This document shows, piece after piece, positions 11,401 to 60,560 of a stretch of 64,000 bases of DNA. The position numbers were made by a program, and so were the translations under genes. Location of the stretch: contig NZ_QAYX01000019.1 of assembly GCF_003054705.1 (NCBI RefSeq), positions 248,001 through 312,000 on the forward strand. The letters are read 5' to 3'. The notes beneath the pieces are model-generated. The model did no database searches, was not told where the DNA came from, and worked only from the letters and a program-made list of their open reading frames with translations. Numbering within the stretch: position 1 is the stretch's first letter; each line of letters opens with the position of its first letter. Origin of the DNA: Opitutus sp. ER46. Its GTDB lineage: Bacteria; Verrucomicrobiota; Verrucomicrobiia; Opitutales; Opitutaceae.

Positions 11401-11908
11401 GGGGCGAAGGAGGGGTTCGCCCGCACACTGCAAACGCCGCCCCGCCGGCCAAGCCCATTCCCGCATGACCGTCCCGATGTCTTGAGGGGCCTTCAGCCCC
11501 TCTCCGCTTACTCCTTTCTCTTCCTCTTCCTCTTTCTCTCGAGGGATTGAGGGATTGAGGGATTGAGGGATTGAGGGATTGAGGGATTGAGGGATTGAGG
11601 GTGACCGCCGAATATCGTAGCCGCCCTTCGCTCGTTCTCGTTCTCGAAATCGTTCTCCGGTGCCTGCTGTCCGTTCTCCCTTCCCCGCAGTGCCACCCTG
11701 TCCGCACGCGCACCTGTCCAGCGGTTCCACACCACCCATCCATCCGTCGATTCAGGACGACATTCGTTCCCGCTCACTTTGGCCTCAGCCGCGCCAGCGG
11801 TGCTCGTGCCTTGGTTCCCCCGCCACGTCCCAAACTGGCGCAGCCAGTTTGCCTAGCAGCCTGTGGACGCAGTCCGCAGGGTGCTTGTGGTCGCAGTCCG
11901 CAGGGTGC
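11401..11908. other. Intergenic region rich in simple and dispersed repeats
   Basis: 508 bp without a convincing gene. From left to right it holds the GH127 leader, a CT-rich tract and an octamer minisatellite (11505-11606), a CGTTCTCGTTCTCG segment near 11632, a perfect 9-bp inverted repeat with 3-nt loop (CAAACTGGC / GCCAGTTTG, 11831-11851), and the first copy of a 19-bp direct repeat that runs into the next gene. The apparent reading frames here are translations of the repeats. Confidence 0.6.
11505..11606. repeat. CT-rich tract followed by GAGGGATT octamer array
   Basis: A polypyrimidine tract (11507-11540) ends in TTTCTCTC and runs straight into seven copies of the octamer GAGGGATT (11541-11596) plus a partial eighth. 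The CT-rich part with its CTCGRGGG end recurs at 22979, 27729 and 41568; only this copy has the expanded octamer. Confidence 0.9.
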
Positions 11909-14975: not shown

Positions 14976-15008
14976 AATTCGTTTTCGCCGTTCCGGCGAA
15001 AACGAATT
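14976..15008. promoter_or_regulatory. 33-bp palindrome upstream of the BMC regulator gene
   Basis: A perfect inverted repeat with 14-nt arms (AATTCGTTTTCGCC / GGCGAAAACGAATT) around a 5-nt centre (14990-14994). It ends 39 bp before the deoR-type start. It could be an autoregulatory operator or the terminator of the preceding gene, and it belongs to a stem-loop family seen elsewhere in the window. A weak promoter match follows (TTGAAC at 15014-15019, TATCAG at 15036-15041, 16-bp spacing), which would give an almost leaderless transcript. Confidence 0.6.
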
Positions 15009-15047
15009 TATGATTGAACCTGCGCATTTAAGTCATATCAGCGGGGC

Positions 15048-15932
15048 ATGCGTGTGCCCCGTCATATCGTTGATGCCCGCCGGCGCCGTCTCGCCGAGTT
15101 GCTGCAACGGCACCGCTACATTGTGCTGGCGGATTTATGCAAGGAGTTCGGCGTATCGGAGGCCACCATGCGCCGCGACCTCGCGCACCTTGAGGAACGC
15201 CACCTCGTCACCCGCACCTACGGCGGTGCGCTGGCTGACTTCAACCTCCGCTTCCCGTCCTTCCGTCAGCGCCGCAATGTCGCCACCGAGGCGAAGCACG
15301 GGATCGCCCGTCAGTCGCTCGCCCTCCTCCGGCCGGAGATGACCGTCTTCTTCGACAACGGCACCACCGTCTTCGCGCTCACCGAGGCCCTGCGCCAGTC
15401 CCCCATCCGGCCGCTCACGTGCGTCACCGGCAACCTGCCCGTCGCTGACCTCCTCTCCGAGGTCGATGGCCTCGATGTTCACCTCCTGGGCGGACAGTTC
15501 CTCCGCCGCCAGTCCGTCCTCCTCGGTGAGGCCGCCTGCCGCGCGGCGGAACAGTGGACCTTCGACATCGCCTTCCTCAGCGCCGAGGGCATGACCCGCG
15601 AGGGACTTTGGAACTCCGACGCCGCCGTCGTCGCCCTCCAACGCGCCGTCGCCGCTCGCGCCCGCACCACCATCGCCCTCCTCGACGCCAGCAAGCTCGG
15701 CCGCTCCGCCCCGCAGTTCTTCTGCGGCTGGGACGCCCTCTCGGGGCTCCTCACCGACACCTCCGCCGCAACCCTCTCCTCGGTGGGTATCCCGGCCGAT
15801 TTGGCGGACGCCAATCGTATCGCCGCCCAAGTTCTCGCCCGCACCTCCGCCGCTGCAACCGCGCCCGCCGCAAGCGACGACGATGAACCGGATGAGAGTT
15901 CGAGCTTGACGCTCCCCACCTCCCTTTTATGA
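15048..15932 (+). CDS. DeoR-family transcriptional regulator of the BMC operon
   Basis: 294 residues. N-terminal DeoR helix-turn-helix: RRRRLAELLQRHRYIVLADL followed by EFGVSEATMRRDLAHLEER and the hallmark VTRTYGGA. The C-terminal sugar-phosphate sensor domain is seen in FFDNGTTVFALTEAL, TCVTGNLPVADLL and the AFLSAEGMTREGLWNSD segment. DeoR proteins usually repress and are released by phosphorylated sugars, which here could be fuculose- or rhamnulose-1-phosphate. It is the first gene of the BMC cluster, in the same direction, 40 bp before pduL. Palindromes flank it on both sides. An acidic C-terminal tail (DDDEPDESSS) is unusual. Confidence 0.9.
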   Translation: MRVPRHIVDARRRRLAELLQRHRYIVLADLCKEFGVSEATMRRDLAHLEERHLVTRTYGGALADFNLRFPSFRQRRNVATEAKHGIARQSLALLRPEMTVFFDNGTTVFALTEALRQSPIRPLTCVTGNLPVADLLSEVDGLDVHLLGGQFLRRQSVLLGEAACRAAEQWTFDIAFLSAEGMTREGLWNSDAAVVALQRAVAARARTTIALLDASKLGRSAPQFFCGWDALSGLLTDTSAATLSSVGIPADLADANRIAAQVLARTSAAATAPAASDDDEPDESSSLTLPTSLL

Positions 15933-15946
15933 CGGAACTCCGTCAT
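15929..15946. promoter_or_regulatory. 18-bp palindrome between regulator and pduL
   Basis: ATGACGGAACTCCGTCAT: two 8-nt arms around AC, overlapping the regulator's stop codon and ending 27 bp before the pduL start. It is placed well for an operator controlling the shell operon, or it may be a weak attenuator hairpin; no strong T-run follows. Confidence 0.5.
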
Positions 15947-15972
15947 TTAAATCTTAGCCACCCTCACGCTCC

Positions 15973-16656
15973 ATGTCCGCTCCTGCCCTGAGCCGCTCCC
16001 TGGTCGAGTCCCTCGTCCGTCAGACGTTGTTCACGCAGATTGGCCGCGAGTTTCAGGCGGCCACGCAGCCGCCCACGCTGGTGGTAAACAGTTCGGCGCG
16101 CCACATGCACGTGACGCAGGAGAACCTCGAGATCCTTTTCGGCAAAGGCTACCAGCTGCAGGTGCACAAGTGGCTGTATCAGGAAGGCCAGTTCGCCTCC
16201 ACCGCCACCGTCACGCTCGTTGGCCCGCGCGACCGCATCATCCCGCAGCTCCGCATCCTTGGCCCGTGCCGCAACCTCACCCAGATCGAGCTGGCCTACA
16301 CCGACTCCGTCTACCTCGGCCTGCCCGTGCCGGTGCGCTCCTCCGGTGACATCAAGGGCACGACCGGCGGCGTGGTCATCGGCCCCAAGGGCGTCGTCGA
16401 AATGAAGGAGGGCATCATCCGCGCCGCGCGCCACGTGCACATGTCGCCCAAGGATGCCGCGTTCTACGGCGTGAAGGCTGGCGAGTACATGACCATGGTC
16501 GTCGAGGCCGAGAAGTGCACGACGCGGTTCGACGACATGCTCGTGCGCGTCGACCCCACCTTTAAACTCGAGGTGCACATCGACACCGACGAGGCCAACG
16601 CCTGCGACCTTGCGCACGCCCGCCGTTGCGAACTGATCCGCAACCCGAAGGCCTGA
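15973..16656 (+). CDS. pduL: PduL-type phosphate acyltransferase of the microcompartment
   Basis: 227 residues. Two PduL domains each carry a zinc-binding histidine motif: NSSARHMHVTQ near residue 42 and RAARHVHMSPKD near 155. GDIKGTTGGVVIGPKG between them is typical of the family. The enzyme turns acyl-CoA and phosphate into acyl phosphate, recycling CoA inside the shell. The N-terminal stretch SRSLVESLVRQTLFTQIG can form an amphipathic helix and is a likely encapsulation peptide. With the acylating aldehyde dehydrogenase and acetate kinase it gives substrate-level ATP formation. It is followed after 63 bp by the first BMC-H gene. Confidence 0.95.
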   Translation: MSAPALSRSLVESLVRQTLFTQIGREFQAATQPPTLVVNSSARHMHVTQENLEILFGKGYQLQVHKWLYQEGQFASTATVTLVGPRDRIIPQLRILGPCRNLTQIELAYTDSVYLGLPVPVRSSGDIKGTTGGVVIGPKGVVEMKEGIIRAARHVHMSPKDAAFYGVKAGEYMTMVVEAEKCTTRFDDMLVRVDPTFKLEVHIDTDEANACDLAHARRCELIRNPKA

Positions 16657-16719
16657 TCCCCTCTCCTCCCCCGGGCCTCCAGCCCTCATTCTCAACCATC
16701 AACTCAACATCGATAACCC

Positions 16720-16989
16720 ATGAGTGAAGCCATCGGACTGATTGAAACCCGCGGCTACGTCGGCCTCGTCGAGGCCAGCGACGCCATGGTGAAAGCGGCC
16801 AACGTGACTCTGGTGCGTAACATCCAGATCGGCGGGGCGCTCGTCACCACCATCGTGAAAGGCGACGTCGGCAGCGTGAAAGCGGCCGTCGACGCCGGCA
16901 AGGAAGCCGCGCAGCGCGTCGGCAACCTCGTTGCCGCCCACGTCATCGCTCGCCCGGCCGCCGGCCTGGTCGAGTTCTTCGCGCCCTGA
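16720..16989 (+). CDS. BMC-H shell protein 1
   Basis: 89 residues, a single BMC domain (EAIGLIETRGYVGLVEASDA ... VTTIVKGDVGSVKAAVDAG). Six copies form a hexagonal shell tile. The pore loop reads NIQIGGAL, differing from the two other BMC-H proteins here, so it may pass other metabolites. The C-terminus (AAHVIARPAAGLVEFFAP) is short. The leader is pyrimidine- and A-rich without a Shine-Dalgarno sequence. Confidence 0.96.
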   Translation: MSEAIGLIETRGYVGLVEASDAMVKAANVTLVRNIQIGGALVTTIVKGDVGSVKAAVDAGKEAAQRVGNLVAAHVIARPAAGLVEFFAP

Positions 16990-17031
16990 ACGACGCGCCA
17001 CCCTTCAACGTAACTCTCAAAAATACTCTCC

Positions 17032-17334
<303 letters not shown>

Positions 17335-17454
17335 TCCGCCTCGTCCGCGACTTTCCGTCGCGCCGGCCCACGAGCGGCAACCTCCTTCGGGAGCGCCGCC
17401 CGCGTGATCGGCGTTCCGGACAGGCGCGCGGCCGACTCTCGAATACCTCCACTC

Positions 17455-18648
17455 ATGGGTAAGGTTCTCGTCGCCAATATCGGCAGCACGTCGTTCAAGT
17501 TCCGCTTGTTCGACATGCCGGGTGAGCAGCTGCTGGCCAAAGGCGGCGCCGAACGGATCGGCGCCAGCGAGAGTCCGTGGAAACTCGAGATCACCGGCCG
17601 CGCGCCGGTCAGCGGAACCACGCGTTTCGCCGACTACGGCGCGGCCATCGCCCATTTTGAATCCGCCCTGAAGGAGGGCGTCATCGGCAGCTTCCGCGAC
17701 CTCGCCGCCGTCGGCTTCAAGCCCGTTATGGCGCAGGGTATCTCCGGCACCCAGGTCCTCGACGACCGGGTCCTCGCCGCGATGGAAGCGCTCTACACGC
17801 TCTTCCCCGCCCACAACCCTCCGTACGTCAACGCGGTCCGCTCCTTCCGCCAGCTCTACCCGGAGCTGCCCTGTATCGGAACGTTCGAGACCGCCTTCTA
17901 CGACCGCCTGCCTGTCGAGAGCACCCGGTTCCCCGTGCCGCTGGACTGGCAAAACCGGCTCGGCATCCGCCGCTACGGCTTCCACGGCGCCAGCCACCGC
18001 TACGTCACCGAGCGTCTCGCCGAGATCAAGGGCCGCGCCGACCTGCGCCTGATTTCCTGCCACCTCGGCGGCAGCTCCTCCATTTGCGCCGTGCGCCACG
18101 GCTACGCGGTTGACTCCAGCTGGGGCATGACCCCGCAGAGCGGCCTGCCGCAGAGCAATCGCGTCGGCGACTTCGACGTCTTCGCCGCCCTCTATCTCGC
18201 CAAGGACCTCGGTCTGGGACTCGGCGAAGTTGAGAAACAGCTTTCCTCCAACGCCGGCCTCAAGGGTATGTCCGGCCTGCCCACCGGTGACGTTCGCGAC
18301 CTCGTCGAGGCCGCCGCCCAGGGCAACGAGAACGCCCGCACCGCCCTCGCCGTCTTCACCAACGCGATCCGCGGCTACATCGGCCGGTTCCTCGTCACGC
18401 TCAACGGCGCCGACGCCATCATCTTCACCGCCGGCATCGGCGAAAACCGTACCGAACTCCGCGAATCCGTCTGCGCCAACCTCGATTTCTGCGGCCTCAA
18501 GCTCGACGCGAAACTCAACGCCGCCACCCACGCGACCGAGACGCGCATCTCCACGCCCGACTCGAAGATCGAGGTCTGGGTCGTGCCGACCAACGAGGAG
18601 ATCGTCATCGCCCGCAACGCCTGGGCCAAACTCCACGGCAAACTCTAG
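17455..18648 (+). CDS. ackA: Acetate/propionate kinase of the BMC operon
   Basis: 397 residues, standard for the family. The N-terminal VLVANIGSTSFKFRLFDM is a variant of the usual NxGSSSxK signature, with GIRRYGFHGASHRYVTERL and TAGIGENRTELRESV as further family motifs. It converts acyl phosphate and ADP to acid and ATP, completing the branch fed by PduL. Position inside the shell operon implies propionate or acetate as product. The ATG at 17455 was chosen over a frame extension to 17404 because the conserved strand begins there. The 106 bp between it and the next gene is CT-rich. Confidence 0.93.
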   Translation: MGKVLVANIGSTSFKFRLFDMPGEQLLAKGGAERIGASESPWKLEITGRAPVSGTTRFADYGAAIAHFESALKEGVIGSFRDLAAVGFKPVMAQGISGTQVLDDRVLAAMEALYTLFPAHNPPYVNAVRSFRQLYPELPCIGTFETAFYDRLPVESTRFPVPLDWQNRLGIRRYGFHGASHRYVTERLAEIKGRADLRLISCHLGGSSSICAVRHGYAVDSSWGMTPQSGLPQSNRVGDFDVFAALYLAKDLGLGLGEVEKQLSSNAGLKGMSGLPTGDVRDLVEAAAQGNENARTALAVFTNAIRGYIGRFLVTLNGADAIIFTAGIGENRTELRESVCANLDFCGLKLDAKLNAATHATETRISTPDSKIEVWVVPTNEEIVIARNAWAKLHGKL

Positions 18649-18696
18649 CCCGCCTTTTTCCCTCACTCCCTTTCTTCCGTCTCCCGTCCCACTCAC

Positions 18697-18745
18697 GCCC
18701 TCAGTCCTTTTCCACTCTCACTTTCACTCTCACTCCTCACTTCCA
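18697..18745. repeat. CACTCTCACTTTCAC pyrimidine repeat between ackA and BMC-H 3
   Basis: Repeated TTTCAC/TCTCAC units like those at 13845 and 62158. It forms the leader of the third BMC-H gene. Confidence 0.75.
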
Positions 18746-18758
18746 AACTAGTACCTCC

Positions 18759-19049
18759 ATGCAACAAGCCATCGGAATGATCGAAACCCGCGGCCTCATC
18801 GCTCTCGTCGAGGCGACCGACGCCATGCTCAAGTCCGCCAACGTCGAGCTCGTCGGGCCCATGACGCAGGTCGGCAACGCCATGGTGACCGTCGTGGTCA
18901 CCGGCGACGTCGCCGCCGTCAAGGCCGCCACTGAGGCTGGCCGCACCGCCGCCCAGTCCCTCGGCGAAGTCGTCTCCGTCAGCGTGATCGCCCGCCCGCA
19001 CAACGAGCTGGCCACCGTGCTGCCGAAGGCCCCCGTCGCGAAGAAATAA
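18759..19049 (+). CDS. BMC-H shell protein 3
   Basis: 96 residues. One BMC domain (QAIGMIETRGLIALVEATDA ... [17 protein letters not shown]). The pore loop TQVGNAMV differs from both other hexamer proteins in the operon. The tail after VIARPHNELA is short and ends in PKAPVAKK. It is most similar to shell protein 2 in the second half (VKAATEAG followed by a LGEVV-type segment), suggesting a duplication, with divergence focused on the pore. Confidence 0.96.
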   Translation: MQQAIGMIETRGLIALVEATDAMLKSANVELVGPMTQVGNAMVTVVVTGDVAAVKAATEAGRTAAQSLGEVVSVSVIARPHNELATVLPKAPVAKK

Positions 19050-19185
19050 CTCGTCCGGCCGCAGCCCGCCTGCGGCCGACTTCCCCCCCCGGCCCGGGCC
19101 GCGCTCCGCGTCCCGGCCGTCGCGCGCAGCGTGCTTCAAAGTCCCGAAGAGCCGAACCCGAACCTGATCTCGCCGCCACGGCCTC

Positions 19186-19246
19186 TCAGCCCTTCAGCCC
19201 TTCCGCCTTCGGTCTTCAGCCTTTTCTTCCTTCAGCCTTTTTCAAC
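19186..19246. repeat. TTCAGCCCTTCCGCC-type pyrimidine repeat
   Basis: Short CTTCAGCCTTTT/TTCAGCCCTTCCGCC units directly before the first BMC-P gene. Similar units occur at 27890-27935, 28050-28090 and near 43105. Confidence 0.65.
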
Positions 19247-19248
19247 CC

Positions 19249-19557
19249 ATGATCCTCGCCCGCGTCGAAGGCACCGTCGTCGCCACCAAGAAGACCGAGA
19301 AGATGACGGGCTCGAAGTTTCTCTTCGTGCGGCCGCTTCTCGTCGATCCGGCCAACCCGCAGCAGTTCAAGAGCGGCAACAGCACGCTCGTGGCCGTCGA
19401 TGAGCTCGGCTCCGGCGAGGGCGACATCGTGCTCATCGCCCAGGGGTCCTCCGCGCGCCTCGGCGCCAAGGACAAGGACACCCCGCTCGACGCCGTCGTC
19501 ATCGGCATCGTCGATACCGTCGATGTGAACAAGCAGATCGTCTACCGCGCGCACTGA
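19249..19557 (+). CDS. BMC-P (EutN/CcmL) shell vertex protein 1
   Basis: 102 residues. MILARVEGTVVATKKTEKMT, FLFVRPLL and VAVDELGSGEGDIVLIAQGS are the standard EutN/CcmL features; this copy has the most canonical central motif of the three. Pentamers cap the vertices of the icosahedral shell. The leader contains the TTCAGCCCTTCCGCC-type repeat. Confidence 0.96.
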   Translation: MILARVEGTVVATKKTEKMTGSKFLFVRPLLVDPANPQQFKSGNSTLVAVDELGSGEGDIVLIAQGSSARLGAKDKDTPLDAVVIGIVDTVDVNKQIVYRAH

Positions 19558-19616
19558 GCGCCGCCTTTTTTTCACTCACCCGCGCGGCCTGAATACCCGC
19601 GCCCCCCTCCACCGCC

Positions 19617-21047
19617 ATGGTCGACCAACAACAACTTATCGCCCGCGTCGTCAGCGAGGTCCTCACCCGTCTCCAACAGCAGCAGGCTGTCGTGCAGAAC
19701 GGCGAGAGCGGCTTCGGCGTCTATGAGAAAATGGAGGACGCCATCGCCGCCGCCCAGAAGTCCTTCCTCAAGCTGCGCGAGGACGGCGTCACCGCCCGCA
19801 AGAAGGCCATCGGCGCCATCCGCCGGATGTGCGCCCAGAACGCCAAGGCCTGGGGCGAACTCGAGTTCGCCGAGACCAAGATCGGCGCCCTGTCCGCCAA
19901 GATCGAAAAGCTCCGCATCTGCGCCGACCTCGTCCCCGGCGTCGAAATGCTCGAGCGCACCGCCTTCAGCGGCGACTTCGGCCTCACCGTCATCGACTTC
20001 GCCCCGTGGGGCGTCATCGGCGCCATCACGCCGGCCACGCACAGCGTCCCGACGCTCACCGGCAACGCGATCAACATGATCGCCGCCGGCAACGCCGTCG
20101 TCTACAACACGCACCCCGCCGCCTGCCAGGTCGCCGCCGTCGCCATCCGCGCCTACAACCAGGCCATCTACCAGGAGACCGGCATTCCCGACCTCCTCAC
20201 CACGGTCACCAAGCCGACGCTCCAGACCTTCGACATCCTCTGCAAGAGCTCCGACGTGAAGCTCCTCTGCGTCACCGGCGGCCCCGCCGTCGTCGCCGCC
20301 GCCATGAAGACCGGCAAGCGCGCCGTCTGCGCCGGCCCGGGCAACCCGCCCGTCGTCGTCGATGAGACCGCCGACCTCGATCGCGCCGCCCGCTGCATCA
20401 TCCAGGGCGCCGCCTACGACAACAACCTGCTCTGCATCGGCGAAAAGGAAGTGTTCGTCGTCGCCTCCGTGGCCGACGCCTTCATCGCCGCCCTCAAGCG
20501 CGCCGGCGCCGTCCAGCTCAACTCCCAGCAGATCGACGCCCTCGCCAAGAAGGCGTTCAGCATCCCCGAGGGGAAGAGCGCCACGACCTGCGGCCACCTT
20601 CCGGTCAACCGCGACCTCGTCGGCCGCGACGCCGCCGTCCTCGCCAAGGCCATCGGCCTCGATGTCGCCCCGGCCACCCAGCTCCTCTTCGGCGAAACCG
20701 AGGAAAACCACGTGTTCGTCCAGGAAGAGCAAATGATGCCCTTCCTTCCGATCGTCCGCGTGAAGGACGTCGATGCCGCCATCGCCGCCTCCATCAAGGC
20801 CGAGCACGGCTATCGCCACACGGCGATCATGCATAGCCAGAACATCAGCAACCTCACCAAGTTCGCCCAGGCGGCCGACACGACCCTCTTCATCAAGAAC
20901 GGCCCGTCGATGACCGGCCTCGGCCTCGGCGGCGAAGGCTTCCTCTCCTACTCGATCGCCACGCCGACCGGCGAGGGCGTCACCACCCCCATGACCTTCA
21001 CCCGCTCCCGCCGGTGCGTCATGGTGGAAGGACTCAACTTGTATTAA
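19617..21047 (+). CDS. CoA-acylating aldehyde dehydrogenase (PduP/EutE-like), BMC core enzyme
   Basis: 476 residues. The N-terminal MVDQQQLIARVVSEVLTRLQ forms an amphipathic helix typical of BMC encapsulation peptides, linked by a Gln-rich stretch. The catalytic domain follows: FAPWGVIGAITPATHSVPT (CoA/NAD site), GPGNPPVVVDETADLD and the catalytic Cys273 in NNLLCIGEKEVFV. It oxidises an aldehyde (lactaldehyde or propionaldehyde class) with NAD and CoA to acyl-CoA, the substrate of PduL. In PVM-type loci the aldehyde comes from the aldolase product lactaldehyde; the exact substrate is not visible here. Confidence 0.94.
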   Translation: MVDQQQLIARVVSEVLTRLQQQQAVVQNGESGFGVYEKMEDAIAAAQKSFLKLREDGVTARKKAIGAIRRMCAQNAKAWGELEFAETKIGALSAKIEKLRICADLVPGVEMLERTAFSGDFGLTVIDFAPWGVIGAITPATHSVPTLTGNAINMIAAGNAVVYNTHPAACQVAAVAIRAYNQAIYQETGIPDLLTTVTKPTLQTFDILCKSSDVKLLCVTGGPAVVAAAMKTGKRAVCAGPGNPPVVVDETADLDRAARCIIQGAAYDNNLLCIGEKEVFVVASVADAFIAALKRAGAVQLNSQQIDALAKKAFSIPEGKSATTCGHLPVNRDLVGRDAAVLAKAIGLDVAPATQLLFGETEENHVFVQEEQMMPFLPIVRVKDVDAAIAASIKAEHGYRHTAIMHSQNISNLTKFAQAADTTLFIKNGPSMTGLGLGGEGFLSYSIATPTGEGVTTPMTFTRSRRCVMVEGLNLY

Positions 21048-21049
21048 CC

Positions 21050-21183
21050 GGAGTTCCAAGTTGCAGGTTTGAAGGTTCACACGTTGCAGGCTCCCGATCC
21101 GTGTCTCCGCAACCTGCCACTTTCCAACCTTCCAACCTGTAACTCCTCACCGGTAACTTTCCAACCTTCCAACCTGTAACTCC
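21050..21183. repeat. 28-bp direct repeat with inverted degenerate copy
   Basis: A 28-bp unit beginning ACTTTCCAACCTTCCAACC occurs at 21119-21146 and, identically, at 21156-21183 (period 37). A degenerate reverse-complement copy lies at 21050-21077, right after the aldehyde dehydrogenase stop, so the transcript can fold into a long hairpin. The second copy abuts the start of the next gene. Confidence 0.88.
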
Positions 21184-21185
21184 GC

Positions 21186-21461
21186 ATGCGCCTCGCTCGT
21201 ATCCGCGGCTATGTGACCTCGACGGTGAAACACCCGAGCCTCGAGCGTTGCCGCCTGCTGATCGCGCAGCCCGTGGACTTGGAGGACAAGCCCGATGGCA
21301 GCCCGCAGATCGTCCTCGATCCGCACGGCGCCGGCATCCACCAGAAGGTCCTGATCTGCTCCGACGGCAGCTGGGTGCGCGAGTACCTCGAGAACCCGCG
21401 CAGCCCCACCCGCTGGTGGGTCATGGGCATCGTCGACCCCGCCCCGGCCAAGGCCTCCTGA
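21186..21461 (+). CDS. BMC-P shell vertex protein 2
   Basis: 91 residues. MRLARIRGYVTSTVKHPSLE and RLLIAQPVDL match the EutN/CcmL family; the central loop (PDGSPQIVLDPHGAGIHQKV) and SDGSWVREYLENPRSPTRWW diverge from the canonical copy. Having several BMC-P paralogues is usual for PVM-type loci. It is separated from the third BMC-P gene by 2 bp. Confidence 0.94.
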   Translation: MRLARIRGYVTSTVKHPSLERCRLLIAQPVDLEDKPDGSPQIVLDPHGAGIHQKVLICSDGSWVREYLENPRSPTRWWVMGIVDPAPAKAS

Positions 21462-21463
21462 CC

Positions 21464-21760
21464 ATGCGCATCGCCAACGTCATCGGCCGCGTCACCCTCT
21501 CCGTCCGCCACCACTCGCTCCGGGGCGAGCGACTGCTCGTGGTGCTGCCGTGGAGCGCCAAGACCGGCGCCACCGGCAAAGACCACGAGTACTCGATCGT
21601 GGCCTACGACGATCTCGGCGCCGCCCCCGGTGACAAGGTCGCCCTCAGCGAAAGCACCGAGGCGACGCGCCCCTTCGACCGACCCACGCCCTGCGACGCC
21701 TACGTGGCCGCCATTCTCGACGACATTTTCTACCAGGCCGAGGACCCGCACGCGGTCTGA
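21464..21760 (+). CDS. BMC-P shell vertex protein 3
   Basis: 98 residues. MRIANVIGRVTLSVRHHSL and RLLVVLPWSAK fit EutN/CcmL; IVAYDDLGAAPGDKVALSES is the vertex loop region. The C-terminus (CDAYVAAILDDIFYQAEDPH) is acidic and longer than in the first copy. It is tightly coupled to vertex protein 2, which suggests equal translation. Confidence 0.95.
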   Translation: MRIANVIGRVTLSVRHHSLRGERLLVVLPWSAKTGATGKDHEYSIVAYDDLGAAPGDKVALSESTEATRPFDRPTPCDAYVAAILDDIFYQAEDPHAV

Positions 21761-21798
21761 ACGCCTCCTCCAGCTCCAACACCCAACTTTAACGCTCC

Positions 21799-22896
21799 AT
21801 GAAACTCTTCGCTCAAAATGACGCCGCCGCGTTCGTGAGGACCGGCGCCCGGGAGTTCCGCTTCAACCGTGACATCCGCCTGACGCCCGGCGCCCGCGAT
21901 GTCCTGATCGAGGCCGGCATCAAGGTCGTGTTCGACGCCAATGCCTCCGTCCCGACCGGCGCCGCGCCCGCCGCCCCGGCGAAGTCCGAGGCCGCCGCGG
22001 CCCCCGCCGCCACGCCCGCCTACTCCGGCGGCAAGGTCGACGTCCAGGCGCTCTTCAACTCCCCCGAGGCCAAGCGGCTCAAGGAGGAGATCTGCGAGAT
22101 GGGCCGGCGTTGCTGGCAGCGCGACTACAACGACGCCAACGGCGGCAATCTCTCCGCCCGTCTCGGCGACTACTTCCTCTGCACGCCGACGCTCGTCTCC
22201 AAGGGCTTCATGAAGCCGGAGATGATCTGCCTCGTGGACATCGACGGCAACCAGGTCGCCGGCAACGGCAAGTGGCGCCGCACGAGCGAAATCATGTCCC
22301 ACTTGGGCATCTACAAGATGGTCCCGGCCGCGGCCTCCGTCGTGCACGCGCACCCGATCCACGCCACCGCCTTCGCCATGGCCGGCATCGAGCCGCCGCA
22401 GTGCCTCATCCCTGAGGTCGAGGTCTTCGTCGGCACCATCCCGGTCGCCGAGTACAAGACGCCCGGCAGCCCGCAGATGAGCGAGATCCTCGGCAAGCTG
22501 GCGCCCAAGCATCAGGCCATCCTCATGGGCAACCACGGCGTGATCACCTGGGGCACCTCCGTCGAGGACGCGTACTTCAAGATGGAGATCACCGACTCCT
22601 ACTGCCGTACGCTCTGGGTCGCCGCGCAGCTCCCGACGAAGCGCACCACCATCCCGCCGGACGAGGTCAAGAAGCTCCTCGACATGAAGGAGAAGATGGG
22701 CCTTCCCGACGCCCGCCATGGCCTCAAGGCCGCCCAGCTCTGCGACTGCGATCCGTGGGACCAGATCGGCGACCGCCCGCAGGCCTGCGCCACGCCCGCC
22801 GGCAAAGCCGCCTCGGTCGACACCATGACCAACGCCGAGCTCGAGAGCATGGTCCAGAAACTCACCGAGCAGGTGATGTCCGCGCTGAAGAAGTGA
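21799..22896 (+). CDS. Class II aldolase (fuculose/rhamnulose-1-phosphate type), BMC core enzyme
   Basis: 365 residues, longer than the roughly 220-270 of free-standing enzymes. Residues 1-47 form an extra small domain (REFRFNRDIRLTPGARDVLI), then an Ala/Pro linker (about 48-75), then the aldolase domain with NDANGGNLSARLGDYFLCTP, the zinc ligands in SVVHAHPIHATAF, and GNHGVITWG. The C-terminal 22 residues (AELESMVQKLTEQVMSALKK) form an amphipathic helix that may target it to the shell. It would cleave a deoxy-ketose-1-phosphate into DHAP and lactaldehyde. It closes the operon and is followed by a strong terminator. Confidence 0.92.
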   Translation: MKLFAQNDAAAFVRTGAREFRFNRDIRLTPGARDVLIEAGIKVVFDANASVPTGAAPAAPAKSEAAAAPAATPAYSGGKVDVQALFNSPEAKRLKEEICEMGRRCWQRDYNDANGGNLSARLGDYFLCTPTLVSKGFMKPEMICLVDIDGNQVAGNGKWRRTSEIMSHLGIYKMVPAAASVVHAHPIHATAFAMAGIEPPQCLIPEVEVFVGTIPVAEYKTPGSPQMSEILGKLAPKHQAILMGNHGVITWGTSVEDAYFKMEITDSYCRTLWVAAQLPTKRTTIPPDEVKKLLDMKEKMGLPDARHGLKAAQLCDCDPWDQIGDRPQACATPAGKAASVDTMTNAELESMVQKLTEQVMSALKK

Positions 22897-22944: not shown

Positions 22945-22975
22945 GGCCGCCCCCTTAACCGGGGCGGCCTTTTTT
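22945..22975 (+). terminator. Rho-independent terminator of the BMC operon
   Basis: A 9-bp perfect stem (GGCCGCCCC / GGGGCGGCC), a 7-nt loop, and TTTTTT at 22970-22975. It lies 49 bp after the aldolase stop. Confidence 0.93.
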
Positions 22976-27588: not shown

Positions 27589-28112
27589 GATCACGGACTG
27601 GGGTTGTGTCAGTGGGCGCCGCGGACTTCCCGCGAACCGCCGGCACGTTCACGTGCCGGCCCCAGCCAACGCACGTGACCACTTCGGGAAAGGACCGCGT
27701 TCCGGTCCCCCCCGGAGACCGGAAAAATCTTTCTCTTACTCTTCCTCTTCCTCTTTCTCCCCCCCTCCGTCCCAGTCCGTCCCCGTGGCCTCCCCGCTCA
27801 AAACGGAGAGAAAGAGAAAGAGGAAGAGTAAGAGAAAGACACTTCGCCCCGCCAGCGGTCCCTCGGTTTTCCTCCCCCGGCGTCAGCCTTCCCGCCCTTC
27901 AGCCCTTCCGCCCTTCAGCCTTTCAGTCCTTCCGCCGCGGCGTCCGGTGGTCCCTCCCAGATACCAGCACATCTCTCTTCCACGACCCAGACCAGCGGCC
28001 TTACGCACTCTCTTCCCCGCCCCGCCCTACACCGCTCCCACCTCGCGGCCTCAGCTTCAGCCCTTAAGCTCCTCAGTTTTTCAGTCATTTCCCCACCAGC
28101 CCCTTTCCGACC
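27589..28112. other. Intergenic region with a long CT/GA inverted repeat
   Basis: 524 bp between divergent genes. It carries the receptor's promoter on the left, a long inverted repeat at 27729-27841, and several CCTTCCGCCCTTCAGCC units at 27890-27935 and 28050-28090 that form the leader of the sialidase-fold gene. No credible gene. Confidence 0.6.
27729..27841. repeat. Long inverted repeat made of CT-rich elements
   Basis: A CT tract (TCTTTCTCTTACTCTTCCTC...) at 27729-27760 pairs with a GA tract (GAGGAAGAGTAAGAGAAAGA) ending at 27841; the arms are about 30 bp and the loop about 50 bp. The arms are copies, in opposite orientation, of the CT-rich element found at 22979 and 41568. Confidence 0.85.
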
Positions 28113-37320: not shown

Positions 37321-37477
37321 GAGAGTGATGGTGATAGAGGGTGAATGTCGGAGAGAAAGCAGGACAAAGGTCCGGTCGCCGCTGCGACCACTGGCGTCAT
37401 ACCGGCGTATCCGTGTGGCTGCCCGTCGCCACCAACCGCTCCATCGCGTCCGTCCCCTTGATACGACCGCCGTCACC

Positions 37478-37615
37478 TGACTTCCGGCTTCTGACATCTG
37501 ACTTCTGACTTCTGGCCTCTGGCCTCTGACCTCCGGCATCTGACTTCCGTCCTCCGCCTTCCGGTTTCTGGCTTCTGGCTTCTGGCTTCCGTCCTCCGGC
37601 CTTCAGCCTTCTCTT
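37478..37615. repeat. CTTCCGGCTTCTGACATCTG tract
   Basis: Degenerate units of CTTCTGACTT, CTTCTGGCCT and CCTCCGGC. The whole gap 37321-37615 (295 bp) otherwise holds only the leader of the GH43-like gene; it separates two genes transcribed leftward. Confidence 0.85.
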
Positions 37616-41567: not shown

Positions 41568-41630
41568 ACCTCTTACTCTTACTCTTCCTCTTTCTCTTTC
41601 TCTCGGGCGATTGAGGGATTGAGGGCCTCG
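41568..41630. repeat. CT-rich composite repeat element
   Basis: CTCTTACTCTTACTCTTCCT followed by CTTTCTCTCGGGCGATTGAG and GGATTGAGGG; same order of parts as at 11505 and 22979. Confidence 0.85.
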
Positions 41631-41643
41631 GCATCGTTCGCGC

Positions 41644-41667
41644 CGGTTTTCGCTACCGCGAAAACCG
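41644..41667. repeat. TTTTCGC stem-loop
   Basis: A 10-bp perfect stem (CGGTTTTCGC / GCGAAAACCG) with loop TACC. It belongs to the family with members at 14976, 58696 and 62090. Confidence 0.85.
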
Positions 41668-41795
41668 TCCTCCGGCTTCCGGCTTCCGGCTTCTGGCTTC
41701 TGTCTTCCGTCCTCCGTCCTTCGGCCTTCGGCCTCTGACATCTGACCTCTGACGTCTGACATCTGATTTCCGCTTTCCGCCTTCTGTCTTCCAGC
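41668..41795. repeat. CTTCCGGCTTCTGGCTTC tract
   Basis: Degenerate units of CTTCCGG, CTTCTGG, CCTCCGTC and ACATCTGACCTC leading to the DUF2007-like gene. Confidence 0.85.
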
Positions 41796-42924: not shown

Positions 42925-43110
42925 ACCACGGAGACACCGAGGCCACGGAGCAGACTGGCTGATTCGGCGGATCACAGAGCTCGGAGGAGGCTCCTGATCT
43001 TCGGCTTCCGCCACCCGACATCTGACCTCCGACACCTGATTTCTGGCTTCCGGCTTCCGACTTCTGGCTTCCGACTTCCGGCCTCTGGCCTCCGGCTTCA
43101 GCCTTTCAGC
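42845..43110. repeat. Large CTTCCGGCTTCTGG tract with CACGGAGACACC unit
   Basis: Mixed dispersed repeats: GAGGTCAGAAATCAGAGGTC, then CTTCTGGCTTCTGGCATCCG, then ACCACGGAGACACCGAGGCC (a common intergenic motif in several bacterial phyla), then long CTTCCGG/CTTCTGG units. The first part overlaps the end of the GrpB gene. Confidence 0.8.
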
Positions 43111-54252: not shown

Positions 54253-55743
54253 TCAGAGCGTCACGCCGTCCTTGAAGATCGCGATCTCGCGGAAGCCGTT
54301 CAGCTCGTTGCGGGCGGGCTGGCCGCTGGCGGTCATGATGACTTCGTCGAGCAGCTTGGCCGCGAGCGAGTCCATCGTCTCCTTCTCGAGGAGCTGGCCG
54401 GCGTTGAAATCGATCCAGTTCTCCTTCCGCGTCGCGAGGTCGCTGTTCGTCGCGATCTTGAACGTTGGGATCGGGCCGCCGAGCGGCGTGCCGCGGCCGG
54501 TCGTGAAGAGCACGAGGTGCGCGCCGGACGCCGCCAGCGCGGTCACGGACACGATGTCGTTGCCCGGGCCGGTGAGGAAATTCAGGCCGCGCTGCTGCAG
54601 CCGGCCGCCGTACGGGAGAATGTCCACGACCGGCGAGGTGCCGCCCTTCTGCAGGCAGCCGAGCGACTTCTCCTCGAGCGTGGTGATGCCGCCGTCCTTG
54701 TTGCCCGGTGACGGATTCTCGTAAACGACCTGGCCGTGGCGGAGGAAGTACTCCTTGAAGCCGTTGATCATCGCCACGCAGCGATCGAAGACCGGGCGCG
54801 TGACGCAGCGGTTCATGAACAGCGCCTCGGCGCCGAACATCTCCGGCACCTCGGTCAGGATGGAGGTGCCGCCGCGCGCGATCAGCTGGTCGGAAAACGC
54901 GCCCACCAGCGGGTTCGCGGTGATGCCGGAGAAGCCGTCGGAGCCGCCGCACTTGAGGCCGACGCGCAGCTCGGAGACCGGGACCTTTTCGCGGTGGAAG
55001 CCCGCGGCGTACTCGATCAGCGAGTCGAGCATCTTGCGGCCGGCGGCGAGTTCGTCGCCCACCTCCTGGGCCACCATGAAACGGTACCGCGGCGAGTCCG
55101 CCTCCGGGATCAGCTTCCGGAAGCTCGCCATCGTGTTGTTCTCACAACCGAGGCCGATGATCAGCACGCCCGCGGCGTTCGGATGCTGCGCCAGGGCCGC
55201 CAGCACGCGCTGCGTGGTGGCGTGGTCATCGCCGAGCTGCGAGCAGCCGTAGGGATGCGACATCGCGTGGACGCCCGTGATGTTGCCGGGGAGCGCCCGC
55301 GCGTTGAGCTGCCGCGCGAGGGTCTGCGCGATCTCGTTCACGCAGCCCACAGTCGGGATGATCCAGATCTCGTTGCGGATGCCCACCTCGCCGTTCGGGC
55401 GACGGTAGCCCATGAAGGTCTTGCCGTCGTCGATCGGACGCAGCGGCTCGATCGCCGGTGCGTACTGGTAATCCAAAACGCCCTCCAGGTTGGTGCGCAC
55501 GTTCTGCACGTGCACCCAGCCACCCTCGCCCACGTCGCTCGTCGCGCGCCCGATCGGCTGGCCGAACTTGATGATCGGCTCGCCGGCGCGGATCGCCCGC
55601 AGCGCGATCTTGTGCGCCGGCGGCACCGCCGCCGCCAGCCGCACGGAGCGGCCGGCAACGTCCACGGTCAGGCCGGCGTCCAAGCTGCGCAGGGACACGG
55701 CGACATTGTCACGGGGGTGGATCTGGAGGACGGGGTTTTTCAT
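54253..55743 (-). CDS. uxaA: Altronate dehydratase
   Basis: 496 residues, the usual length. N-terminal SAF-like domain (residues 1-95: NPVLQIHPRDNVAVSLRSLD), then the catalytic domain with GYRRPNGEVGIRNEIWIIPT, HAMSHPYGCSQLGDDHATTQ, GLGCENNTMASFR and GLKCGGSDGFSGITANPLVG, all hallmark UxaA/GarD sequences. It dehydrates D-altronate to 2-keto-3-deoxygluconate in galacturonate breakdown. It follows uxaB by 4 bp, an obvious operon. Confidence 0.95.
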   Translation of the reverse strand: MKNPVLQIHPRDNVAVSLRSLDAGLTVDVAGRSVRLAAAVPPAHKIALRAIRAGEPIIKFGQPIGRATSDVGEGGWVHVQNVRTNLEGVLDYQYAPAIEPLRPIDDGKTFMGYRRPNGEVGIRNEIWIIPTVGCVNEIAQTLARQLNARALPGNITGVHAMSHPYGCSQLGDDHATTQRVLAALAQHPNAAGVLIIGLGCENNTMASFRKLIPEADSPRYRFMVAQEVGDELAAGRKMLDSLIEYAAGFHREKVPVSELRVGLKCGGSDGFSGITANPLVGAFSDQLIARGGTSILTEVPEMFGAEALFMNRCVTRPVFDRCVAMINGFKEYFLRHGQVVYENPSPGNKDGGITTLEEKSLGCLQKGGTSPVVDILPYGGRLQQRGLNFLTGPGNDIVSVTALAASGAHLVLFTTGRGTPLGGPIPTFKIATNSDLATRKENWIDFNAGQLLEKETMDSLAAKLLDEVIMTASGQPARNELNGFREIAIFKDGVTL

Positions 55744-55747
55744 TACG

Positions 55748-57277
55748 TTAGCTCTTCAAGGCTGCGGTGACGGCCGCGCGCGCGCCCTGCGTGGCGATCG
55801 TCTCGAGGCTGCGGGCGACCAAGGTGGTCAGGCCGGCAACTTGGTTGAGATCCTGACCCCAGAACTCGGCGTGGGCGAGCGTGGTCGTGGCCAGCTCCTG
55901 CCAGTTCTTGGTCAGCTCGGCCTTGCGCCAGGCCGCGGAGAAGTGCGCCAGCACGGCGGCATCGTCGCGGATCGGGTAAGCCTTGCCGTCGCGGTGGCCC
56001 TGCAGCTCGTTGGTCGTGACCTGCGTGCCGCGGTAGAACGCGATCAGCGCGGCGAGCGAGAACGAGAGTGCCACGGGCAGCTTGCCCTTGGCCTTCTGGT
56101 AATCGAGCAGCGAGGGCAGCACGCGGACCTTCCACTTCGAGACCGAGTTCAGCGAGATCGAGAGCAGCTCGTGGCGGACGAACGGGTTGCGAAAACGCTC
56201 GAGAACCGACTCGGCGTACGCGCGCTTCTCGGCTTCGGGCAGCGCGACCGTCGGAAGGATCTCGTCGAACACCGCGCGGCGCACGAACGCGCCGAACGTC
56301 ACGTCCTCGACCATGTCGCGGACGGTGTCCAGGCCCGCCAGGTAGGCGCCGAGCACGCTGGAGGTGTGCGCGCCATTGAGCACGCGGACCTTGCGCGTGC
56401 GGTACGGCGTGAGGTCGTCGGTCCAGACCACGTTGAGCCCGGCCTTGGTGAACGGCAGTTCGTCGGCCAGGTGCTTGGGCCCTTCAATGACCCACAGGTG
56501 GAAGTACTCGGCGGCGACGATCAGCTTGTCGTCATAGCCGAGGTCCTTGCGGAGCTGCTCGACCTCGGCGCGGGGATACCCCGGGACGATCCGGTCCACC
56601 AATGTGTTAAGGAAGTAGTTCGCCTCCTTGATCCAGGTGGTGAACGCGGCCGGGAGCGCCCACTTCTGGGCGTGCTCGAGGACGATGCGGCGGAGGTTGT
56701 CGCCATTGCGGTCGATCAGCTCGCACGGCAGGAAAATCAGGCCCTTCTTCGGGTCGCCGTTCACCGCGTTGAAGCGCTCGAACAGGAGCGACGCAACCTT
56801 GGCGGGGAAGCTCTCGGGGCAGACGCCCTGGGAGTAGGTCTCGGCGACGTAAGCGATGCCGGCCTCGGTGGTGTTGGAGAGCACGAAGCGGATATCGTTG
56901 CCGCGGAATGCGTTCACGAGATCGGACCACTGCTCGTAAGGGTTCACCGCGCGGCGGGTCGCCGTGACGATGCGGCGGGCCTCGACGACCTTGCCGTTCT
57001 GCACGCCGCGCATGAGCAGCGTGTAGATGCCGTCCTGCGCGTTCAGCTCGCTGGCCATGCCTTGGCGGATCGGCTGGGCGACGAGCACGTTGCTGCGGAA
57101 CAGCTGTTGCGAGTTTACCTCGTCGATCATCCAGTCGGCGAAGGCGCGCAGGAAGTTGCCCTCCCCGAACTGCACGACGCGTTCCGGGTACTCGTCGGCC
57201 GGACCCCGCGCAACGGAGGGGGCGAGCTTCTTTTGAGCTCGGAGAAGGTTTCGACTGAGAGATGTGCTCGTGGACAT
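55748..57277 (-). CDS. uxaB: Tagaturonate reductase (altronate oxidoreductase)
   Basis: 509 residues. Mannitol dehydrogenase family: ERVVQFGEGNFLRAFADWMI at the NAD site, FVLSNTTEAGIAYVAETYSQ, FLPCELIDRNGDNLRRIVLE, and the catalytic Lys/His region (VRVLNGAHTSSVLGAYLAGL, RNPFVRHELLSISLNSVSKW). It reduces tagaturonate to altronate with NADH. The product goes to UxaA. No uxaC isomerase or kdgK/kdgA is in the window. Confidence 0.94.
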   Translation of the reverse strand: MSTSTSLSRNLLRAQKKLAPSVARGPADEYPERVVQFGEGNFLRAFADWMIDEVNSQQLFRSNVLVAQPIRQGMASELNAQDGIYTLLMRGVQNGKVVEARRIVTATRRAVNPYEQWSDLVNAFRGNDIRFVLSNTTEAGIAYVAETYSQGVCPESFPAKVASLLFERFNAVNGDPKKGLIFLPCELIDRNGDNLRRIVLEHAQKWALPAAFTTWIKEANYFLNTLVDRIVPGYPRAEVEQLRKDLGYDDKLIVAAEYFHLWVIEGPKHLADELPFTKAGLNVVWTDDLTPYRTRKVRVLNGAHTSSVLGAYLAGLDTVRDMVEDVTFGAFVRRAVFDEILPTVALPEAEKRAYAESVLERFRNPFVRHELLSISLNSVSKWKVRVLPSLLDYQKAKGKLPVALSFSLAALIAFYRGTQVTTNELQGHRDGKAYPIRDDAAVLAHFSAAWRKAELTKNWQELATTTLAHAEFWGQDLNQVAGLTTLVARSLETIATQGARAAVTAALKS

Positions 57278-59005: not shown

Positions 59006-60397
59006 ATGCTCACGCCCGCCGATCGCACCCAGCAGCGTGCCGCGCTGATCGCCGCCACGATGGCGTCATTTCTGACGCCGTTCCTCGGCTCCTCGATCGT
59101 CGTCGCGTTGCCAGCGATTGGTGCCGAGCTCGGCCTCACGGCCGTTCAGCTCAGCTGGGTGGCGGCCGCGTTCATGCTCGGCTCGGCGGTGTGCCTGGTG
59201 CCATTCGGACGCATCGCTGACCTCGTCGGCCGCAAGCGGGTGTTCGTCACCGGCACCGTGTGCTTCACGCTCACCACGCTCGCCTGCGGGCTGGCCCACT
59301 CGACGGTGTTCCTGATCACCGCCCGCGCTCTCCAAGGCATGAGCGCCGCGATGATTTTTGGCACCGGCCTAGCGATCCTGACCTCGGCGTTTCCCGCCAA
59401 CCAGCGCGGCCGCGTCATCGGCTTCAACGCATCGGCCGTCTATATCGGGCTCTCGCTCGGGCCGTTCGTGGGCGGACTGCTCACGCGGCACTTCGGCTGG
59501 CAGAGCATCTTCTTCGCCACCGTGCCGCTGGGTGTCGCCTCCGCGATCGTGGCGGGCCGGGGCCTGCGCACCGAGGTGGTCGAGCGCACCACCAAGCCGT
59601 TCGACTATGTCGGCGTGGCGATCTACGCCACGATGCTGGTCGCCCTGATGGCCGGGGTATCGGCGCTGCCGCGGCCGGCGGGGCTCGGGTTGCTGGGCGC
59701 GGCGCTGGCTGCGGCGGTGATCTTCGTGCTCTGGGAGCGCCGGATGGAGCAGCCGATGCTCGACGTGCGCTTCCTCGTCGGAAACCCGGTGTTCGCGTGG
59801 TCCAACGTGTCCGCGTTCATCAACTACAGCGCGACCTCGACGGTCGCGTTCCTGATCAGCCTCTACCTGCAATACCTGCGCGGTTTCGATCCCGCGCAGG
59901 CCGGGTGCGTGCTGCTGGTGCAATCGGTGACGATGGCCGGGGTGAGTCCGTTCGCCGGCAAGCTGTCGGACAAGATCGAGCCGCGCATCATGGCCTCGGC
60001 CGGCATGGGGTTCACGGTGGCTGGCCTGATCATCCTCTGCTTCCTGCACGCCGATACCCCGCTGGCCGTGGTCATCACGACGCTCGTGGTGCTCGGCATC
60101 GGGTTCGGGCTCTTCTCCTCCCCCAACACGAATGCGGTGATGAGCTCGGTGCCAAAGGAGCGGCTCGGAGTCGCGTCCGCCACGCTGGGCACGATGCGGC
60201 TGCTCGGTCAGACCGTGAGCATGGGCCTGACTGTGGCGGTGCTGGCGGTTTCGGTCGGCCGCGCGGCGATCACGCCGGCGGTGCACCCGCAATTTCTTGA
60301 AGCGATGCGCGGCGTGTTCATCGCGTCCGCCGTCCTGTGCACGATCGGCGTCTTCGCCTCGCTCGCACGGGGAAATGTGCGGAAGCCAGAAGCCTGA
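59006..60397 (+). CDS. MFS transporter, 14-TM drug-efflux type (DHA2-like)
   Basis: 463 residues. LTPFLGSSIVVALPAIGAEL is the classic DHA2 helix-1 sequence; VPFGRIADLVGRKRVF the loop 2-3 motif; ARALQGMSAAMIFGTGLAIL and GLSLGPFVGGLLTRHFGWQS the drug-antiporter motif C region. About 13-14 hydrophobic helices. Probably exports a drug, sugar or metabolite with protons. The ATG at 59006 follows the CT-rich leader; the longer frame upstream encodes the TTCGTG repeat. Confidence 0.9.
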   Translation: MLTPADRTQQRAALIAATMASFLTPFLGSSIVVALPAIGAELGLTAVQLSWVAAAFMLGSAVCLVPFGRIADLVGRKRVFVTGTVCFTLTTLACGLAHSTVFLITARALQGMSAAMIFGTGLAILTSAFPANQRGRVIGFNASAVYIGLSLGPFVGGLLTRHFGWQSIFFATVPLGVASAIVAGRGLRTEVVERTTKPFDYVGVAIYATMLVALMAGVSALPRPAGLGLLGAALAAAVIFVLWERRMEQPMLDVRFLVGNPVFAWSNVSAFINYSATSTVAFLISLYLQYLRGFDPAQAGCVLLVQSVTMAGVSPFAGKLSDKIEPRIMASAGMGFTVAGLIILCFLHADTPLAVVITTLVVLGIGFGLFSSPNTNAVMSSVPKERLGVASATLGTMRLLGQTVSMGLTVAVLAVSVGRAAITPAVHPQFLEAMRGVFIASAVLCTIGVFASLARGNVRKPEA

Positions 60398-60560
60398 AGC
60401 CAGAGGCCAGCTGACTGACCAGAAGCCCAAGAAGCCTGAAGCCGGAGGCCAGAAGCCAGTCCGAACCAGTTATCGAATCGGCTTCCGTCACTCCGTCCTC
60501 CGGGTTCCGGCCTCCGGCTTCTGGCTTCTGACTTCCGGCCTCTGGCTTCCGGCCTCCGGT
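60378..60560. repeat. Inverted pair of CTTCCGGCTTCTGG tracts between convergent genes
   Basis: A purine-rich half (GAAGCCAGAAGCCTGAAGCC ..., 60382-60460) is followed by its pyrimidine-rich counterpart (CTCCGGCTTCTGGCTTCTG ..., 60495-60560), so the transcript can fold back. The first part begins inside the 3' end of the MFS gene. It could work as a bidirectional terminator. Confidence 0.8.

Follow-up and report, generated by a model that had tools for sequence, protein, structure and literature searches.

Introduction

Bacterial microcompartments (BMCs) of the Planctomycetes and Verrucomicrobia (PVM) type are the closest described relatives of the locus reported here, an operon in a 64-kb stretch of the Opitutus sp. 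ER46 genome. Like this operon, the PVM locus of Planctomyces limnophilus and of metagenome-assembled genomes (MAGs) of marine Verrucomicrobiota holds a class II aldolase, an acylating aldehyde dehydrogenase (AldDH), an acetate kinase, a DeoR regulator and shell genes. A gene with lactate/malate dehydrogenase domains is the predicted NAD recycler of PVM compartments (PMC4207490). Electron transfer through PduS, a flavoprotein, and PduT, a trimeric shell protein (BMC-T), has been discussed for other compartments (PMC2982820, PMC4207490, PMC6325248). Types that lack cobalamin enzymes and yet have PduS or PduO have been listed, and the PVM type is not among them (PMC4207490).

The window, by which we mean the whole stretch analyzed, covers positions 248,001 to 312,000 of contig NZ_QAYX01000019.1 (G000:C19:248001-312000) in a genome of 5.7 Mb. 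We consider it fairly probable that the main operon of a catabolic microcompartment of the PVM type lies in the window, and that a PduS/PduT satellite on another contig is the redox partner of this compartment.

Results

The operon belongs to the PVM class

Open reading frames (ORFs) and family profile searches gave the gene order DeoR-PduL-BMC-H1-BMC-H2-AckA-BMC-H3-BMC-P1-AldDH-BMC-P2-BMC-P3-aldolase on the plus strand (15048-22896). An earlier reading, made without database searches (the sequence-only reading), had proposed the same genes in the same order, all in one direction, and a PVM-type metabolosome, and the profile matches bear it out. The class II aldolase (21799..22896), the signature enzyme of the PVM class, matches PF00596 with 155.5 bits. 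The metabolosome core is present as AldDH (19617..21047; NF011927, 611 bits, above the cut-off), a PduL-type phosphotransacylase (15973..16656; PF06130, 1.2e-67; NF011652 above the cut-off) and the acetate kinase AckA (17455..18648; TIGR00016 above the cut-off). The listed ORF of AckA (17404-18648) opens at a GTG at 17404, while PF00871 matches from ORF residue 20 and homology starts at about the ATG at 17455. The DeoR-family regulator (15048..15932) matches PF08220 and PF00455 above their cut-offs. Three hexameric shell proteins, BMC-H1 (16720..16989; 94.2 bits), BMC-H2 (17032..17334; 94.5 bits) and BMC-H3 (18759..19049; 84.8 bits), were recognized by PF00936. PF03319 found the three pentameric ones in the same locus: BMC-P1 (19249..19557), BMC-P2 (21186..21461) and BMC-P3 (21464..21760, with the domain at G000:C19:269464-269721, i.e. 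window positions 21464-21721).

A lactate/malate dehydrogenase gene, also counted among the features of a PVM locus (PMC4207490), was not found in the window locus, and searching the genome for it at E <= 1e-30 gave no match either. In a tree without PDU (propanediol utilization) or EUT (ethanolamine utilization) outgroup, the AldDH was nearest to the AldDHs of other Verrucomicrobiota loci. The operon is an ordinary member of the known PVM class.

Elsewhere in the genome, rhaT and rhaA adjoin each other on contig C23. Rhamnose is therefore favored as the substrate, and the organelle probably breaks down plant sugars of this kind.

A PduS/PduT pair lies on another contig

The sequence-only reading had noted that the operon has no trimer protein. 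This is correct for the operon but was rejected for the genome, which has five PF00936 domains: those of the three BMC-H proteins and two in tandem in one 183-aa ORF on contig C20, a BMC-T. The gene directly follows, with an overlap of one base, the gene of a 442-aa PduS-like protein. Tandem BMC chains, PduT among them (3n79, 3vcd), head the sequence matches of the BMC-T in the PDB, and Cys39 of the BMC-T is aligned with the C-P-G-K cysteine of 3pac. Tandem BMC domains, a conserved pore cysteine and a pduS neighbor, which together characterize PduT, are all present. Since the score against TIGR02526 (eut_PduT) is 128.9 bits, below the cut-off of 250.3, we call the protein PduT-like. The C-x-G-K motif is kept in all 25 PduT rows listed, of which L127 and L160 come from one genome.

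The PduS-like protein carries the Pfam domains 01512, 10531, 13534 and 13375 and two four-cysteine motifs, as expected of PduS. The same four domains are listed for PduS in PMC6325248, and the C-terminal position of the RnfC_N domain agrees with the domain order given there. The spacing of the two cysteine motifs is that of Citrobacter freundii PduS (PMC2982820). It is kept in 26 of 27 PduS rows, our own copy included, the exception being a truncated row (here, too, L127 and L160 are one genome). Domain order, length and partner gene are the reasons for the name PduS. The three BMC-P genes found in the genome all lie inside the window operon; therefore, no other compartment is seen that PduT could join.

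The satellite itself consists of two genes; in the stretch around it (G000:C20, L009:8163-15682), dnaK, groEL, a small ORF, pduS, pduT and a hydrolase-like gene lie on one strand. From reading alone, we take the product of this last gene to be a hydrolase of the metallo-beta-lactamase fold.

PduS/PduT and the dehydrogenase in related PVM loci

We fetched the best 80 loci with the window AldDH as query and added hand-chosen loci of the same family, so that this is not a random sample. Near-identical pairs of loci (e.g. L015/L017 and L024/L046) were kept in the counts. Locus L032 lies on the same contig as L137; it was dropped from the BMC-H and AldDH trees and from the gene-order, dehydrogenase, pairing and operator counts, and kept in one survey of 84 loci other than the 84 of the dehydrogenase count.

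PduS lies inside eight of the 80 AldDH-fetched loci, seven times directly after the aldolase and once, in a planctomycete, before DeoR. Sixteen of 100 family genomes encode PduS, and the trimer gene follows in 16/16; in five of these 16, PduS lies inside or beside the PVM locus. The PVM AldDH was found in 50 of the 100 genomes and occurs together with PduS in 15 (Fisher p = 1.7e-4). At the order level, PduS was present in 5/132 genomes, all five of which have PF00936.

The sequence-only reading had found no NAD-recycling enzyme in the operon, and neither did we. Its conclusion that recycling must be supplied from elsewhere was a good guess: a candidate, PduS/PduT, was found on another contig, and we infer that the pair recycles NAD for the PVM compartment. 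Of the 84 loci that contain AldDH and aldolase and extend 1.2 kb or more downstream, 46 have the lactate/malate dehydrogenase gene right after the aldolase. As this gene was not found in the other 38, it is not strictly defining for the PVM class. PduS occurs in 12 of these 84 loci and shares only one of them with the dehydrogenase (p = 8.6e-4 in a naive Fisher test that ignores kinship). These counts suggest that PduS/PduT may replace the dehydrogenase.

Operon and satellite probably differ in origin

In an AldDH tree of 105 rows, built with a quick method, the window sequence and those of G157, G150, G141 and G166 fall into a Chthoniobacterales-type clade with a support of 100, and the other 21 of the 26 family rows are set apart across starred branches. 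Each of the 11 operon proteins resembles its counterpart in the Chthoniobacteraceae locus L015 more than that in G050, a genome of the same family. For the PduS of the satellite, on the other hand, G050 (72%) is nearer than L015 (63%). Of the 11 unlinked family satellites fetched, 7 have groEL on the strand of pduS and no more than 3.4 kb upstream of it (in pieces in one of the seven), and dnaK precedes groEL in five of these seven.

Because of the AldDH clade, the protein comparisons and the recurrent groEL neighborhood, we propose that the main operon is probably a horizontally acquired version of the Chthoniobacterales type, and that the satellite is probably native, sitting at a place common to several genera of the family.

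Evidence against a redox role of PduS/PduT and alternative explanations

Several results weigh against the identity, the role or the history proposed for the satellite. In NCBIfam, the PduS-like protein matches rnfC best (226.5 bits, cut-off 245.95), and RnfC comes first among its matches in the PDB as well. GxGGxGFPT, tried as a pattern for NADH and flavin mononucleotide (FMN) binding, was found in just 15 of the 27 PduS rows. The PduT-like protein differs little in its closeness to G050 (73%) and L015 (71%), and the PduS tree leaves the place of our copy unsettled. One genome, G155, has a PduS/PduT pair (G155:C220, L162) and no BMC-H, its two PF00936 domains being those of its PduT.

The relation to the dehydrogenase is also less clear at the genome level. 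The 50 AldDH-bearing family genomes divide into 5 with both, 10 with PduS only, 20 with the dehydrogenase only and 15 with neither (p = 0.22), when dehydrogenase matches above 300 bits are counted and weaker ones of 110-182 bits, including those in the PduS-bearing G182 and G208, are not. Tree-aware pairing gave 6 independent pairs with a median p of 0.25, for loci and family genomes alike. Once relatedness was allowed for, we therefore rejected the idea that dehydrogenase and PduS strictly exclude each other, although it was significant in the naive test on loci; what remains is a trend. For the same two reasons, we speak of replacement as suggested only.

Two iron alcohol dehydrogenases encoded elsewhere in the genome, both above the Pfam cut-off, match lactaldehyde reductase at 228 and 238 bits (cut-off 523). 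Finally, a genome scan for the operator motif of the operon (described below) gave no site at pduST or rhaT-rhaA; its pattern was made from the two sites of the window, so that looser operators could be missed. No word of 9 to 14 bases is shared between the upstream stretches of the operon and that of pduS either, and co-regulation of pduST with the operon was set aside on these two grounds.

Some of these results are what would be expected if the operon encoded a plain PVM compartment without a trimer, PduS/PduT being a leftover or serving another purpose and NAD being regained by a cytosolic dehydrogenase or an alcohol dehydrogenase encoded elsewhere. The unshared operator, the two iron alcohol dehydrogenase genes, the 15 of 50 genomes with neither system and the pair in G155 all agree with this explanation. 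We nevertheless regard it as rather unlikely, since PduS is mostly restricted to genomes with the PVM AldDH (15/16) and lies physically within PVM operons of several lineages, and no further BMC-H or BMC-P that PduT could join was found in the genome of Opitutus sp. ER46. The pair in G155 might be an orphan or have another role.

In Pdu compartments, the role known for PduS is corrin reduction (PMC2982820). It is very improbable, though, that the pair supports another compartment of the genome, one built around a cobalamin-dependent diol dehydratase and independent of the PVM operon, because a second set of BMC-H or BMC-P did not turn up in the genome and relatives hold PduS/PduT within PVM operons. 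PF02286 (diol dehydratase) had no match in our genome; as no control genome matched either, this proves little and was dropped as evidence. A PVM compartment with PduS/PduT as its redox partner remains the explanation we favor.

Three BMC-H proteins are usual in Verrucomicrobiota

The sequence-only reading had called three distinct BMC-H proteins without a BMC-T unusual. The pore strings it had quoted are indeed present: IQIGGAL in BMC-H1, KVGSGNV in BMC-H2 and TQVGNAM (quoted as TQVGNAMV) in BMC-H3. However, when the fetched loci that hold PduL, AldDH and aldolase are counted without duplicates (83, window included), 78 of them have the same three BMC-H proteins in the same order. In 74 of the 83, the order is exactly PduL-H1-H2-AckA-H3-P1-AldDH-P2-P3-aldolase, and four more have an extra, split or missing piece. 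The remaining five (L058, L061, L064, L065 and L079), all from Planctomycetota, have no H3 and the order H2-H1.

The pore motifs are conserved as well. When rows were assigned by best match to the three proteins of the window, some tandem proteins included, IGG was found in 116 of 121 H1 rows, [VI]GSG in 111 of 127 H2 rows and VG[NS]A in 89 of 93 H3 rows. A BMC-H tree of 115 rows was built from the window, a random 34 of the other 85 loci with three BMC-H and 5 Planctomycetota loci, and gave a warning of few columns. H1, H2 and H3 each form one side of a branch, with supports of 100, 96 and 0, so that the H3 branch has no support of its own. PF00936 was found in 59 of 100 family genomes, 31 of which have exactly three domains.

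Because of the locus survey, the tree groups and these domain counts, we regard three BMC-H as usual in Verrucomicrobiota and, judging from these sequences, three BMC-H and three BMC-P as their usual PVM set. Verrucomicrobiota MAGs of two families have been described with three BMC-H and three BMC-P (PMC8857213), as in the window operon. The three-pore set was thus rejected as a novelty on the survey and the tree, the sharing of these pores among PVM loci being the very result that the sequence-only reading had named as speaking against it. Its idea that three hexamer pores divide metabolite selectivity for want of a trimer fits motifs that differ and are conserved as three groups, as three separate jobs would require, but as an account of an unusual locus it is hardly credible, given the identical trio in 78 of 83 loci and the trimer encoded in the genome.

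A second type of BMC-T, of about 204-214 aa, was seen in G013, G050, G021, G079, G014 and G096. It is not that of our genome, and no PduS adjoins it in the stretches fetched. One such gene, for a 214-aa tandem BMC-T, lies in a different BMC locus (L121; G013:C1:2096000-2108500) together with three BMC-H, three BMC-P and an aldolase; no match to AldDH, PduL or AckA was found in the stretch fetched. G181, G187, G201 and G207, which have five domains and no PVM AldDH, may hold a BMC locus of the L121 type.

Regulation of the operon

Two operator-like dyads were found on the plus strand: an imperfect one upstream of deoR (15007..15031) and one between deoR and pduL that overlaps the deoR stop codon (15926..15950). 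With up to 3 mismatches allowed, a pattern built from both matched just these two sites in the whole 5.7-Mb genome, and a reversed-pattern control matched 0. Since a weight matrix trained on the upstream regions of all 109 PduL genes was drawn toward AT-rich words, a simple dyad count in the clade of the window was used instead: 25 of 32 same-clade loci have an exact ATGA-N10-TCAT close to where PduL begins, compared to 0.16% of 640 shuffles. Two local dyads and the conservation in the clade of the one near PduL therefore indicate that DeoR probably controls itself and the operon locally through two putative operators. A perfect inverted repeat (14976-15008, arms of 14-15 bp) lies just before the first operator and deoR; it could be the terminator of the upstream gene or regulatory.

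The operon ends, as the sequence-only reading had stated, in an intrinsic terminator on the plus strand (22945..22975), with a hairpin at 22945-22969 formed by a 9-bp all-GC stem and a 7-nt loop, followed by TTTTTT. As the scan gave 5 terminator-like sites where shuffles led us to expect 4.8, the assignment rests on the place and the all-GC stem. The scan for sigma-70-like promoters found 0 (shuffles 0.7).

Other features of the window

Two adjoining genes on the minus strand (54253-57277) presumably encode an altronate dehydratase and a tagaturonate reductase, as far as can be told from reading their translations. Short tandem repeats are numerous (11541-11601, 27728-27936, 37477-37591, 41569-41766, 42993-43099 and 60382-60559), with units mostly of 6-8 bases or multiples of 7 that are often CT-rich. 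A tandem array at 63439-63984 has a 257-base unit in 2.1 copies.

Discussion

A pathway can be proposed for this compartment with steps taken from the cited PVM papers. Substrate, encapsulation, cofactors and electron flow are those we infer. The class II aldolase would cleave a 6-deoxy-ketose phosphate, most likely L-rhamnulose-1-phosphate, into dihydroxyacetone phosphate and lactaldehyde. AldDH would convert lactaldehyde to lactyl-CoA with formation of NADH, PduL would turn lactyl-CoA into lactyl-phosphate, and AckA would yield lactate and ATP. The shell would be built of the three BMC-H and the three BMC-P. In AldDH, an N-terminal amphipathic stretch whose hydrophobic moment ranks in the top 0.2% of windows within the protein is a possible encapsulation peptide, and so is a C-terminal amphipathic stretch of the aldolase (top 2%).

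The PduS-like FMN/Fe-S flavoprotein would most likely oxidize the NADH made by AldDH, and the electrons would pass through the Fe-S pore of PduT to the cytosol. PduS/PduT would then stand in for the lactate/malate dehydrogenase found after the aldolase elsewhere. If this is true, the pair is a dedicated NADH-oxidizing path across the shell for an operon without a cobalamin or glycyl radical enzyme. Going one step further, PVM compartments might have two interchangeable redox exits, the dehydrogenase or a PduS/PduT conduit, with a native satellite serving a horizontally acquired shell operon in our genome; we put this forward tentatively, as a possibility that falls somewhat short of probable. 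If the operon is of foreign origin and the trimer of the satellite is native, the genome would also offer a natural experiment on how freely shell proteins can be combined.

The idea of electron transfer through PduS/PduT is known already, and in the literature searched, as far as accessible, we found no description of the pair in PVM compartments. The present analysis adds the PduS/PduT satellite and the hints it gives about the redox exits of the PVM type. The role of PduS/PduT in cobalamin-independent glycyl radical compartments is considered open, and activation of the glycyl radical enzyme has been suggested (PMC6325248). The PVM type has neither a cobalamin nor a glycyl radical enzyme and is thus a cleaner system for asking if PduS/PduT exports electrons and so regenerates NAD.

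Three described systems come closest. The locus differs from the PVM locus of P. limnophilus and the marine MAGs in that no lactate/malate dehydrogenase follows the aldolase and PduS/PduT lie on another contig. The pair itself resembles PduS/PduT of the PDU and glycyl radical enzyme (GRM) microcompartments in having the same four domains, two four-cysteine motifs, neighboring genes and a cysteine in the trimer pore; unlike these, of which GRM5 is also tied to fucose and rhamnose, our BMC operon has no cobalamin or glycyl radical enzyme. Satellite BMC loci likewise place a shell gene far from the main locus (PMC4207490, PMC8217296), and they may include enzymes, with a tuning of permeability suggested as their function (PMC8217296). 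In contrast to satellites as defined there, the one reported here holds a redox pair.

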